In this document: one piece after another, positions 59,584 through 64,000 of the stretch
How the letters are laid out: the number at the start of each line of letters is the position of its first letter
Numbering within the stretch: position 1 is the stretch's first letter
Source: Caldisericota bacterium
GTDB lineage: Bacteria; Caldisericota; JANLFM01
Reading direction: 5' to 3'
Assembly (NCBI GenBank): GCA_024655965.1
Contig: JANLFL010000003.1
Span: 186,001 to 250,000 of the forward strand
DNA length: 64,000 nucleotides
Notes under the pieces: model-generated
Databases searched by the model: none
The model's input: only the letters and a program-made list of their open reading frames with translations
Told to the model about the DNA's origin: nothing
Made by a program: the position numbers and the translations under genes

Positions 59584-61377
59584 TCACATGGAAAGTCTGG
59601 GCAAAGCCCGAAAAAGGAATACCGCAGTCTGCGCCCGTGAGGCGGGAGAATTGAGACTGACGATGTACTCACCTCCACCCGATCCCGGCGTGGTGATCTG
59701 GGGATAATCCGGGAAGAGGATCAGGCCGTTTATCATTGAAGCCCCAACGTATTGGTAAAACCAATCCTCGGAACCGATCTGGCGGGTGGAAGCGTCAGCG
59801 CCAGAAAGCATTATGTAGGGGGGTGGACCGGGGGGATCCTGAAGGCTCCATTCCCTTGCCCGGACTATGACCGTGAGGACTTCAGCCATTGTGATGTTCG
59901 CATCAGGTTTGAAAGTCCCATCAGGATACCCCTTCACCAAGCCGTACTTGGCAGCTCCCTCTACGTACTGGTAAGCCCAGTGGGTGGAAGGCACATCGGG
60001 GAAGGAAGGGCTGGAATGAGATTCCGGCGCAAGCATTGAACTGAGCAAGGCCATTTTGGCGAATTCCGCCCTTGTAACCGCCAACTCCGGTTTGAAGGTT
60101 CCATCGGGGTACCCGTTGATAATTCCCATAGAGGCAAGTTCCATGATTTCCCTATGAGCCCAAAAAGAGGAGGGAACATCGGGGAAAGAGAGGGGTGGGG
60201 AAGGAGGGGAAGCAGAAGGAGAAAAAGGCGCCGGACCTTCTTCCAGGGCATAAAATATCCCTTCTGCGGTCCCGAAATAGACGGCCTTGTTTTTCCCGAT
60301 TGAAGGAGGGGCGGTAACCGCTGACCCAGCATCAAAAACCCATTTCTTTTCCCCCGAGGATTTCAAAGCATAGAGCTTGCCATCCCCAGAGCCAAAATAA
60401 ATAACCTCCTTGGAATCCACAGTTGCTGCGGAATAAAGGCCGTTCCCTTCGGTGAATTTCCAAATGGTCTCGGAAGTCTCGGGGTTGATTGCGTAAAAGC
60501 ATTTATCCGTGGAGCCCAAATAAAGGGTATTATGAAAACCCACCGCAGGAAGAGAAGTGGCTTTAAATGGTATTTGCCATTTTAGAGAACCATCGGTCCT
60601 CATGCCATACAAATTATTTTGGGTATGCGGATAAGAGATACTATCCGAATCTACGGAAAGGGAAAAGACTGTCCCGGAAAGTGGACAATCCCATTTTCGG
60701 TTTAAGTCCTCGTCAAAAGCAGCAACTCCCCCCTGGTAAGGGACAAGGAGCGTTGTACCGGCATTTGCCATAGCAGGGGGAAATGTGTATCCCTCGGGGG
60801 GTCCCAGGCCTTCCAAGCAGTTGAATGTCCCATCTGCGGTGGAAATTAAGTATAACCTGGGGGCCTTGACCGATTGAGCCAAACCAAAAAAGGTTAAATT
60901 TGGAGACCCGTTCACCGCATCTGGAAGGGTAACATTCCATTTCAAAGTCCCATCGAGGAAGAGGGCAAACATTTGATTGGATGCCCCGAAGTAAATTTCG
61001 TTGCTCCAGGGGGAAAGATACGGGGTAACCCAGAATGAGGCAAGTGGATCACCGGTATGCGTTTCGAAGCTCCACCTCAGGCTTCCCTCCGGGGTGAACG
61101 AATAAAGCGTCCCGGATGTGGTCAAAAAGTAAATGTTGCCTTCCGAGTCTATCACCGGGGTGGAAGTGATTGGGTTTCCCGTTTCAAAAAACCATTTCAC
61201 CCGTGGGAAATCGGGGCCAATTTCGCCCGTTCTACCAGAATGGCTGGCCTCATACATGAAACCAAGCCAGATGGGAAGATCAGGGGAAGCTTCAATCCTT
61301 GTATAGGAAGGTGAAAGGAGAATCAAACAGAAAAGAAGAAATGAACAAAAAACCACCCTCAAAGTAGATTTGCTCAT
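59584..61377 (-). CDS. Secreted beta-propeller (PQQ-like) protein with C-terminal SLH domains
   Basis: A 597-residue exported protein. The track start (61425) is replaced by ATG 61377, which follows a perfect AAAGGAGGTAAAC and directly begins the signal peptide MSKSTLRVVFCSFLLFCLILL. About six blade repeats follow (NIYFLTTSGTLYSF, EIYFGASNQMFALF, VIYFGSGDGKLYALKSSGEKKW, AVYFGTAEGIFYALEEG), i.e. a PQQ_2-type seven-or-fewer-bladed propeller. Two good SLH domains then occur (GYPDGTFKPELAVTRAEF and GYPDGTFKPDANITMAEV) and a degenerate third. It is probably a wall-anchored binding or structural surface protein; enzymatic PQQ use is not indicated. Confidence 0.88.
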   Translation of the reverse strand: MSKSTLRVVFCSFLLFCLILLSPSYTRIEASPDLPIWLGFMYEASHSGRTGEIGPDFPRVKWFFETGNPITSTPVIDSEGNIYFLTTSGTLYSFTPEGSLRWSFETHTGDPLASFWVTPYLSPWSNEIYFGASNQMFALFLDGTLKWNVTLPDAVNGSPNLTFFGLAQSVKAPRLYLISTADGTFNCLEGLGPPEGYTFPPAMANAGTTLLVPYQGGVAAFDEDLNRKWDCPLSGTVFSLSVDSDSISYPHTQNNLYGMRTDGSLKWQIPFKATSLPAVGFHNTLYLGSTDKCFYAINPETSETIWKFTEGNGLYSAATVDSKEVIYFGSGDGKLYALKSSGEKKWVFDAGSAVTAPPSIGKNKAVYFGTAEGIFYALEEGPAPFSPSASPPSPPLSFPDVPSSFWAHREIMELASMGIINGYPDGTFKPELAVTRAEFAKMALLSSMLAPESHSSPSFPDVPSTHWAYQYVEGAAKYGLVKGYPDGTFKPDANITMAEVLTVIVRAREWSLQDPPGPPPYIMLSGADASTRQIGSEDWFYQYVGASMINGLILFPDYPQITTPGSGGGEYIVSLNSPASRAQTAVFLFRALPRLSM

Positions 61378-61395
61378 GTTTACCTCCTTTGAGAC

Positions 61396-61425
61396 ATTGT
61401 AAGCCTCAAAGGCCTTAAAAAGCAA
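61396..61425 (-). promoter_or_regulatory. Promoter of the propeller-SLH gene
   Basis: On the minus strand TTGCTT and TACAAT are separated by 18 bases and end 19 bases before the ATG, so the leader would be only about a dozen bases and carry the Shine-Dalgarno sequence. Confidence 0.45.
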
Positions 61426-61694
61426 TTGAATGCTTCAATTTTGGGAAGGATTTAAATATGATTTTGAAAGGCACCATTTTCCTTTGGAAAAAATTGGTCA
61501 TGGTGAACGTTAAAAAGCAAATTGGAGGGAAGCCATCAAGCTTTTTTAAAGGATCTCTTAAAAGCACCAAAAATGGAAAGGGTCAAAAAAATAAGCAAGG
61601 ATTTGTCTTAATTTTTTTGGGGGATTAAGACCTTTTTCATAAATTTTTACTGGTGGAAATTGTGGTGTGAGCTGGAGGGAACAAAATCCTCCAA
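61426..61694 (-). other. Spacer between plsY paralog and propeller-SLH gene
   Basis: No gene recognised. GTCTTAA (61606-61612) and TTAAGAC (61625-61631) form an inverted repeat, and GCTTTTTTAA/TTAAAAGC (about 61540-61566) another. Either might help end the minus-strand plsY paralog transcript, but both stems are AT-rich and weak. Confidence 0.4.
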
Positions 61695-62369
61695 TTACTT
61701 TTTTTGGTCTCCCTTTCTTATTCTCCTTCTGGGGAAGTTGGGAAGCGAAAAAACAAACTTTTTGATTAATTTCCCGATCTCCCTCCTATGGGTAAAAACC
61801 AGAAGGAAGGCGTTAAGCAATGCCACGAAAATGAAATCCCGGCGGAAAAGAAATACAAACACGGTGACCACAAATATCCCCGTTAAGGCCCTGACAGCGT
61901 CAAATTCGGGGGTGGTGCCCTTCCTTTTGATCAAAACGAAAAGGGCGTAAACCGTCCCCAGAATCAGTGGGACCTCGTATTTCGTAAGGGCTGACCAAAC
62001 GCCAAAGGTAGTGGAAATGCCTTTTCCTCCCTTGAATTTGAGCATGGGAGGGAAAATGTGCCCCAGCAGGGGGGCAATGGAAATCAAGGTCAGTTGGAAT
62101 GTGGTAAGCCTACCTGCGGACAAGATGAAATAAAGGGGGATAAATCCCTTGAGATAATCGAGGAAAATCCCCGGAAAGCCCCAGCGGAAACCCTTCAACC
62201 TCCAGAGATTTGTTCCACCAGGGTTGCCGTCCAGGAATTCCCTCAGGTCTTTGCCGGAGATTTTTCCCAGGATAAAGGAAAACATAATCGAGCCGGTTAG
62301 GTATTCCGCCAGGAAATAGAGGAAAAAGATTGGCCAGCTCACCTGACCCTGACCTTCCTTCCCTTCCAT
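61695..62369 (-). CDS. PlsY-family acyltransferase paralog
   Basis: A 224-residue multi-pass protein of the glycerol-3-phosphate acyltransferase PlsY family, but divergent: DGNPGGTNLW replaces the usual SGNIGATN, KFKGGKGISTTFG is conserved and FTHRREIGKL replaces the third motif. The neighbouring glycosyltransferase suggests a role in acylating a glycolipid rather than the main phospholipid route, for which plsY at 10.4 kb exists. ATG 62369 overlaps the glycosyltransferase by 31 bases; GTG 62342 would give a 4-base GTGA overlap and is the alternative. Confidence 0.8.
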   Translation of the reverse strand: MEGKEGQGQVSWPIFFLYFLAEYLTGSIMFSFILGKISGKDLREFLDGNPGGTNLWRLKGFRWGFPGIFLDYLKGFIPLYFILSAGRLTTFQLTLISIAPLLGHIFPPMLKFKGGKGISTTFGVWSALTKYEVPLILGTVYALFVLIKRKGTTPEFDAVRALTGIFVVTVFVFLFRRDFIFVALLNAFLLVFTHRREIGKLIKKFVFSLPNFPRRRIRKGDQKK

Positions 62370-63400
62370 TTAACCTCGCCTTTTATGAGACCGGAGAAAA
62401 TGGAATTTGAAAAAACCAAAAGGAATATTATCAAGTGAACAGGGAAAAGGAAGAGCAAGATTGGGTGGAAATTTCCCAGCACCCTGCCCAATACCAGAAA
62501 TGAAAGCCCGAAAATTATCCCGAATAAATAATGTTTTGAGAGGTTTATGGTAACGGAGACAAGGGAGGTTAAAAAGACGAAAAGAACCAGGAACTCCAGC
62601 GGGTGAATTGAAATTGCCCCCTTGGAAAAATTTTTCGACCAACCCAAAAATAGGTCTCTAAACCCATTTCCGTACATCCGAAAGGACAGGTCTTTTCTAC
62701 CCAAAAAATTCCTAACCTTTATTCCCTGCTTGCGCAGGACTTTCCCCAGGGCCAAATCCTCGGCAATTTCGTGAAGGACATTTTTATGCCCCCCGGTTTC
62801 TTCATAGGTTTTCCTGTCGATCAAGATGCAGGGTCCAAATAACCCCCGGGGAGAAATCAGCCTGTGCAAAAATGAGCTGCTGTTAAGAGCCATGGCTCCG
62901 ATCAGGTTAAACATAAAGGAAAAATTTTCCCAAAAGCCCCCAATTTGGTGATAAGGCCAGACGCTTAAAACCCCCTTTTCTTTCTCGTAGGTATAGACCA
63001 ATTTTTCCAGGGTTTTTTCTTTTAATCTTACATCCGCATCCAGGAAAATTATCAGTTCTCCTCTCGAAGCTTCCCATCCTTTTAGGCAGGCGAACGATTT
63101 TCCCACCACTTCTTCGGGCTTGTCGTCGATTTTTACCACCTTTGCCCCAAAGGATTCAGCCACTTCCGCCGTTTTGTCGGAGGATTCATCGTCAACCACA
63201 ATTATTTCGAAGGGTTTAAAAGTCTGGCTATGTAAGCATTTAATTAAACCGGGAAGGTTCTTTTCTTCGTTTCGCGCAGGGATTACAACAGAGACCTTAT
63301 GCTGGTTTTTTGGTTTTCCCTTCTTCAGGGTCTGAAATGGGAAAAAGGAAAGAAGTCCAAAAACAAATCCGGCAATATATAAGGCTACGTTGTAATCCAT
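62339..63400 (-). CDS. Family 2 glycosyltransferase, membrane-bound (CrtQ/CruC-like)
   Basis: A 353-residue GT2 enzyme. One N-terminal helix (YNVALYIAGFVFGLLSFFPF), then the GT-A domain with VSVVIPARNEEKNLPGLI, IIVVDDESSDKT and the metal-binding FLDADVRLK, and the later HEIAEDLALGKVLRKQG, then three C-terminal helices. The closest type is the group glycosylating carotenoids or lipids at the membrane. Stop overlaps the PlsY paralog, so they form an operon. No carotenoid genes are in view. Confidence 0.86.
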   Translation of the reverse strand: MDYNVALYIAGFVFGLLSFFPFQTLKKGKPKNQHKVSVVIPARNEEKNLPGLIKCLHSQTFKPFEIIVVDDESSDKTAEVAESFGAKVVKIDDKPEEVVGKSFACLKGWEASRGELIIFLDADVRLKEKTLEKLVYTYEKEKGVLSVWPYHQIGGFWENFSFMFNLIGAMALNSSSFLHRLISPRGLFGPCILIDRKTYEETGGHKNVLHEIAEDLALGKVLRKQGIKVRNFLGRKDLSFRMYGNGFRDLFLGWSKNFSKGAISIHPLEFLVLFVFLTSLVSVTINLSKHYLFGIIFGLSFLVLGRVLGNFHPILLFLFPVHLIIFLLVFSNSIFSGLIKGEVKWKGRKVRVR

Positions 63401-63454
63401 TAATTAATTTTAACCCCTTTTCAACCACCCGGTCACCTTAGAAGACCTGCTTTC

Positions 63455-63541
63455 TTAAGGGGGCTTCCCCAGATCCTGCAAAAGAAAACTCAATTTTTCC
63501 GCTTGTTTTTGGGAGAGACTTTTCAATTTGCCAGAAATCAT
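63455..63541 (-). CDS. Possible 28-residue small ORF
   Basis: Minus-strand ATG to TAA encoding a helix-like peptide (SGKLKSLSQKQAEKLSFLL within it). The frame is open upstream by about ten more codons. The ribosome site (AAGGGC 11 bases before) is poor. Composition looks protein-like, but the small size makes chance likely. Confidence 0.2.
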   Translation of the reverse strand: MISGKLKSLSQKQAEKLSFLLQDLGKPP

Positions 63542-63638
63542 ATCACAAATGCCCTTTGGGAAGGTTTTGGGTTTTTTGGGGGGAGGAAACTAATTAGAGT
63601 AGGGGAGGGAAGCCAAAAATCAACCCCAAATTGGGGTC

Positions 63639-63668
63639 TTGATTTTGCTCCTTAAAACTTATGATAAT
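63639..63668 (+). promoter_or_regulatory. Possible promoter of the Cas6-like gene
   Basis: TTGATT and GATAAT are 18 bases apart, immediately after the ACCCC/GGGGT repeat and about 120 bases before the start codon. Moderate match only. Confidence 0.4.
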
Positions 63669-63787
63669 TTATTAACCATGGGAAAAAAGGGTTTTAGGTC
63701 AATTCGAAGGATATTTTTTCAAGGCTTCGGGCTCTTCCCCTCACTTTCTTTGAAGATTAATCTTGTTCTTTTCGGAGGAAATTCCAG

Positions 63788-64000
63788 GTGTTTCAAACAG
63801 AAATATTTCGGGAAAATCTCGAAAAACTCCGTTGGGCACGCTTCAGGCTGACCTACCGGGCAAAAGAAAAAATAATTTTTCCCGAATATAAGGGTTCGAC
63901 TTTTCGGGGCCCTTTCGGGCATGCCTTTCGCCGCCTTGTCTGCACCAGATCTGAATTTCCCGCCTGTTTGCCATGCCCAATCCACTTTAATTGTCCTTAT
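63788..64000 (+). CDS. cas6: Cas6-like CRISPR RNA endonuclease, N-terminal part (runs off the window)
   Basis: This gene is absent from the ORF track because its stop lies beyond the window. From GTG 63788 the frame is open for 71 codons to the edge. The GTG follows GGAGG by nine bases. The product begins with a strand (ARFRLTYRAKEKIIFPEY), then the KGSTFRGPFGHAFRRLVC segment, followed by a cysteine-rich stretch (CLPCPIHFNC). This glycine-rich RGxFGHAxRRLVC pattern with a trailing Cys cluster is typical of the RAMP/Cas6 family that cuts pre-crRNA. The catalytic C-terminal part is unseen, so other RAMP-fold proteins remain possible. An associated CRISPR-cas locus would be expected to the right. 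Confidence 0.75.
   Translation, partial: MFQTEIFRENLEKLRWARFRLTYRAKEKIIFPEYKGSTFRGPFGHAFRRLVCTRSEFPACLPCPIHFNCPY

Follow-up and report, generated by a model that had tools for sequence, protein, structure and literature searches.

A cas6 gene at the edge of a sequence window leads a type III-A CRISPR–Cas locus with mosaic parts

The gene cut off by the right edge of a 64,000-nt window of Caldisericota DNA is, as judged from its sequence, a real cas6 that forms the left end of a type III-A CRISPR–Cas locus. The window, meaning the whole stretch of DNA analysed here, comprises bases 186001–250000 of contig C33 (267,453 bases) in a 1.73-Mb draft genome of 47 contigs with an estimated contamination of about 5%. 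To complete the cut-off gene, we read the sequence of C33 past the right edge of the window. Coordinates marked L002 refer to C33:246001–266000, such that an L002 position plus 60000 gives the window position; L002 1–4000 is identical to window 60001–64000. The presence of a complete adaptive immune locus on C33, large and apparently intact, is now settled, and we hold with high confidence that the frame at the edge is best explained overall as a cas6 leading a complete type III-A system.

Identification of cas6 at the window edge

The cas6 frame opens on the plus strand at GTG 63788, with a GGAGG ribosome-binding site (window 63774–63778) nine bases ahead of the start. It remains open up to base 64000, with codons 1–71 of 329 inside the window, and ends at L002 4777; the complete frame (L002 3788–4777, window 63788–64777) encodes 329 residues followed by a stop. 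A preliminary description of the window had pointed to this frame, start and ribosome-binding site and quoted N-terminal residues, all of which are present exactly as described, and had called the product a Cas6/RAMP N-terminus at which a CRISPR–Cas locus might begin. By itself, the 71-residue fragment has no match in Pfam or NCBIfam, so that call rested on a motif. The complete protein bears it out: the Pfam family CRISPR_Cas6 (PF10040) matches residues 202–326 with 61.6 bits (E = 1e-16) against a cut-off of 25 bits, and the PADLOC Cas6 model matches residues 13–328 (E = 4.6e-94). Of the profile comparisons proposed at the outset, that with PF10040 succeeded, as did a further one with PADLOC, and those of the full 329-residue protein with the NCBIfam/TIGR Cas6 models returned no match.

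Missing family matches, for the fragment in Pfam and NCBIfam and for the full protein among the NCBIfam Cas6 models, are what could be said for a chance frame, or for another RAMP-fold protein with unrelated CRISPR genes nearby. The Pfam and PADLOC matches to the full-length protein already refute a chance frame, however, and the same protein is encoded by 8 of 60 related genomes, with such homologues adjoining cas genes in other genomes; we regard this explanation as having a negligible probability. Two competing open reading frames, at 63639 (plus strand) and 63719 (minus strand), both overlap the conserved cas6 frame and are shadows of it, as had been suspected.

Conservation extends to the features first noticed in the fragment. 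In an alignment of the query with ten homologues, one of them truncated ahead of the N-terminal region, the cysteine cluster C52, C60, C63 and C69 is recognisable in all but the truncated protein, and the motif YKGS..RG is retained in the closer homologues; both are invariant in a three-way alignment with the proteins of two named genomes (L038 and L039). The C-terminal glycine-rich loop GKGTVFGLG (residues 316–324) is intact and is aligned in the homologues. A search of the genome for a second copy found no further match to Cas6. The AlphaFold model of Cas6 was of too low quality for a fold search. Elsewhere in the window, positions 59584–61425 on the minus strand encode a 613-aa protein combining a PQQ-like beta-propeller part with S-layer homology domains.

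A type III-A locus downstream of cas6

Beyond the edge, cas6 does not stop early or resolve into a non-CRISPR family in a neighbourhood empty of cas genes; both repeats and other cas genes, sought within 15 kb, were found. Two minus-strand genes of 112 aa (L002 4847–5185) and 308 aa (L002 5224–6150) lie between cas6 and cas1 and are followed on the plus strand by an adaptation operon of cas1 (L002 6542–7549), cas2 (L002 7550–7813), cas4 (L002 7806–8387) and csa1 (L002 8388–9329; PF06023 and TIGR01896). Behind csa1 come a leader palindrome (L002 9315–9358) and array 1 (L002 9435–11010), and then an effector operon, also on the plus strand, of cas10/csm1 (L002 11734–14190; TIGR02578, 608 bits), csm2 (L002 14183–14587, taking an inner start), csm3 (L002 14599–15426), csm4 (L002 15408–16367), csm5 (L002 16318–17376) and csm6 (L002 17385–18854). 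A second leader palindrome (L002 18897–18940) stands behind csm6, and array 2 begins at L002 19017 and continues as far as the end of the contig (L003 1453).

Curated models place Csm1–Csm5 over their cut-offs, and by these models the locus is type III-A, a subtype that could not be told from 71 residues and was resolved on the full locus. The NCBIfam cut-offs are exceeded by cas1, cas4, csa1 and csm2–csm5, and the Pfam cut-off by cas2; csm6 is recognised by Pfam domains and PADLOC (E = 2e-116), and its NCBIfam score falls below the curated cut-off. All checked catalytic motifs of Cas1, Cas2, Cas4 and Csa1 are intact. The whole genome holds a single Cas1 gene and two Cas10 palm genes, the second belonging to another csm operon described below; the HD and GGDD motifs are intact in both Cas10 proteins, as are GGVD in both Csm3 proteins and R-x6-H in both Csm6 proteins. 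Rfam models had no match in the locus, and the extended locus contains neither type I-A effector genes nor the type I-D effector genes cas10d, csc1, csc2 and cas3.

Two Csm modules and their proposed working

A second contig, C3 (8,459 bases), carries the same repeat core together with a second complete cas10–csm2–csm6 operon, flanked by two array pieces with repeats ending GAAAG. Neither csm module contains internal stops. The two are 80.7% identical in Cas10, 85% in Csm2, 88% in Csm3, 81.5% in Csm4, 74% in Csm5 and 73.5% in Csm6. Because the best other Csm3 found is 62% identical, the modules look like products of a duplication within this lineage. Divergence is fastest in csm5 and csm6, and the cell may need no more than one of the Csm sets. 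The repeats are 37 nt long, GTTGCATCG(A/C)GTGACCCGTTAGATTGGGGACTGAAAC, and number 46 on C33 and 12 on C3; the final base of the repeat distinguishes the arrays of the two modules. CRISPR array ends fall at contig ends in the draft assembly, and more than one way of joining C33, C3 and a third contig, C42, is compatible with it.

From these components we infer an active system in which the arrays would be transcribed and the transcripts cut by Cas6 within each 37-nt repeat to yield crRNAs. Two similar Csm complexes, each of Cas10 and Csm2–Csm5, would carry the crRNAs and detect foreign RNA that matches them, whereupon the target RNA would be cleaved by Csm3 and DNA by the HD domain of Cas10. 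The GGDD palm of Cas10 is predicted to make cyclic oligoadenylate, which would activate the ribonuclease Csm6. Both modules would probably share Cas6 and one Cas1–Cas2–Cas4–Csa1 set, the latter inserting spacers into the arrays. The spacers, 35–45 nt long, matched no target in the host, in 60 relatives or in a phage collection, a search in which the genome comparison scored some first-look candidates only, and immunity is accordingly a prediction.

Origin of the cas6 and adaptation block

Type III-A systems with Cas6 are well known; the mosaic of parts assembled here is less usual. The locus resembles other type III-A (Csm) loci in its cas10/csm1, csm2–csm6, cas6, cas1 and cas2 genes and in arrays whose repeats terminate in GAAAC or GAAAG. 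It departs from them in placing cas6 upstream of the adaptation genes, whereas in the distant III-A loci L029, L030, L038 and L039 cas6 adjoins cas10, and further in containing cas4 and csa1 and in having a duplicated effector operon with arrays at each copy.

A sister genome, G001, offers a closer parallel for the left part of the locus. Its genes (L025) run cas6, a cas3′ helicase, an HD protein, a 666-aa protein, csc2 (TIGR03157, over cut-off), a 253-aa protein, cas1, cas2 and cas4, and the cas6, cas1 and cas2 products of the two genomes are 61–73% identical. In both loci cas6 comes first and cas1, cas2 and cas4 keep the same order, but here the 112-aa and 308-aa minus-strand genes (L002 4847–6150) fill the slot of the I-D-like effector between cas6 and cas1, and the III-A effector comes after the adaptation genes. 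A search with the sister's Csc2 as query, run without a positive control, found nothing in the genome. In some adaptation modules of types I-B and I-D, cas6 is part of the set (PMC5704561), and the exchange of effector modules beside a retained adaptation module, type III included, has already been described (PMC5704561). On this comparison, cas6 and the adaptation genes most probably belong to a block that in the sister genome encloses an I-D-like effector and that here would serve type III-A.

The same comparison could be taken to mean that Cas6 is a remnant of a decayed type I-D locus that does not serve the adjoining III-A operons: in G001 the cas6–cas1–cas2–cas4 block flanks an I-D-like effector, and the distant III-A loci keep cas6 beside cas10 instead. 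Such a remnant is improbable, however, for a Cas6 that is full length with an intact C-terminal loop and that is the only Cas6 match found in the genome. Three arrays, moreover, connect the two csm operons with the adaptation operon: each lies directly behind a cas operon, and all share a leader palindrome that is otherwise absent from the genome. We favour a cas6 and adaptation block that would serve both csm modules.

Csa1 was sought in 60 relatives and is present in none, which points to a separate gain of csa1 in this genome. Two cas4-like genes are typical of no subtype other than I-A (PMC5704561), and the adaptation module here is like that of type I-A in having both Cas4-family genes, with cas4 beside csa1; it differs in being bacterial, in accompanying III-A effectors and in a locus that contains no I-A effector genes. 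The locus is a bacterial case in which the pair of Cas4-family genes regarded as characteristic of I-A stands alongside III-A effectors, and could reveal what role Cas4 and Csa1 play in a PAM-independent type of system. Also less usual are the I-D-associated block, the three palindromes, and the hairpin elements and small open reading frame within array 1.

The codon usage of the 112-aa and 308-aa genes looks coding. No homologue of the 308-aa protein was found in viruses or plasmids, two weak matches in relatives (E = 0.003–0.009) fall in frames that resemble multi-pass membrane proteins and are probably due to chance, and its AlphaFold model was of too low quality for a fold search. We also considered a RelE-like toxin at its C terminus and set this aside, as the resemblance consists solely of a low-confidence pattern of strands followed by a final helix.

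Leader palindromes

The leader palindrome, TTCGAAGATC-N(24–25)-ATCTTCGAA, occurs at exactly three sites in the genome and nowhere else: the two on L002 given above and C3:604–646 on the minus strand. At every site it stands 120–121 bp ahead of an array's first repeat, one site following csa1 and the other two following the csm6 genes. Across the three sites the arms are 87–100% identical, and the sequence between palindrome and repeat is 64–76% identical. The palindrome could be a binding site for adaptation or transcription. In the type I-A system of S. islandicus, efficient adaptation depends on the binding of Csa3a to a leader-distal motif at −143 to −94 (PMC9456107); the position is similar, but csa3 is absent from the locus described here. 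Alternatively, the palindrome may act as a terminator for the preceding operon. Together with the duplicated Csm modules, this unique palindrome is a directly testable feature of the locus.

Insertions and a possible duplication within the arrays

Two copies of a 123-nt element, each folding into three strong hairpins, interrupt array 1 (regions L002 9661–9857 and 10278–10474), and the repeats bordering a copy are degenerate on the side facing the element. Partial copies lie past the terminal repeat on C3 (C3:8041–8136) and at the start of C42 (C42:1–60, within the region C42:1–100), and a diverged copy stands outside any array at C42:4300–4423. The end of array 1 holds a 422-bp insert (region L002 10515–11010) with a 126-aa open reading frame that has a hairpin upstream, a good ribosome-binding site and a stop codon within the terminal repeat. 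On C42 (L024), a repeat and a degenerate repeat enclose two related frames of 95 and 113 aa (201–488 and 1027–1368), the latter of which terminates inside the degenerate repeat; a stop codon inside a repeat is thus found in two of the three array-borne small frames. Codon usage is poorly host-like in the 126-aa frame and looks coding in the C42 frames. Neither the 126-aa frame, with a single weak match (E = 0.008), nor the 113-aa C42 frame has a convincing homologue.

In CRISPR-guarded toxin–antitoxin modules (CreTA), the antitoxin is a crRNA-like molecule that shows extended complementarity to the promoter of the toxin gene. Comparison of the spacers with the cas genes, the array frames and the locus yielded chance-level 13-mers only, in a search that did not cover partial pairing, and a CreTA reading of the array frames is unsupported so far. 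A further reading, unlikely in our estimate, is that a selected arrangement exists in array 1 and in the corresponding part at the beginning of C42, in which strongly folded 123-nt elements between degenerate repeats and small genes between repeats would act as array-borne cassettes, for example guard toxins, or as insulators, of an undescribed kind. At the contig end, a 694-bp block of nine spacers is present twice in tandem (L003 11–1453) with one base differing between the copies, representing either a duplication or an assembly artefact.
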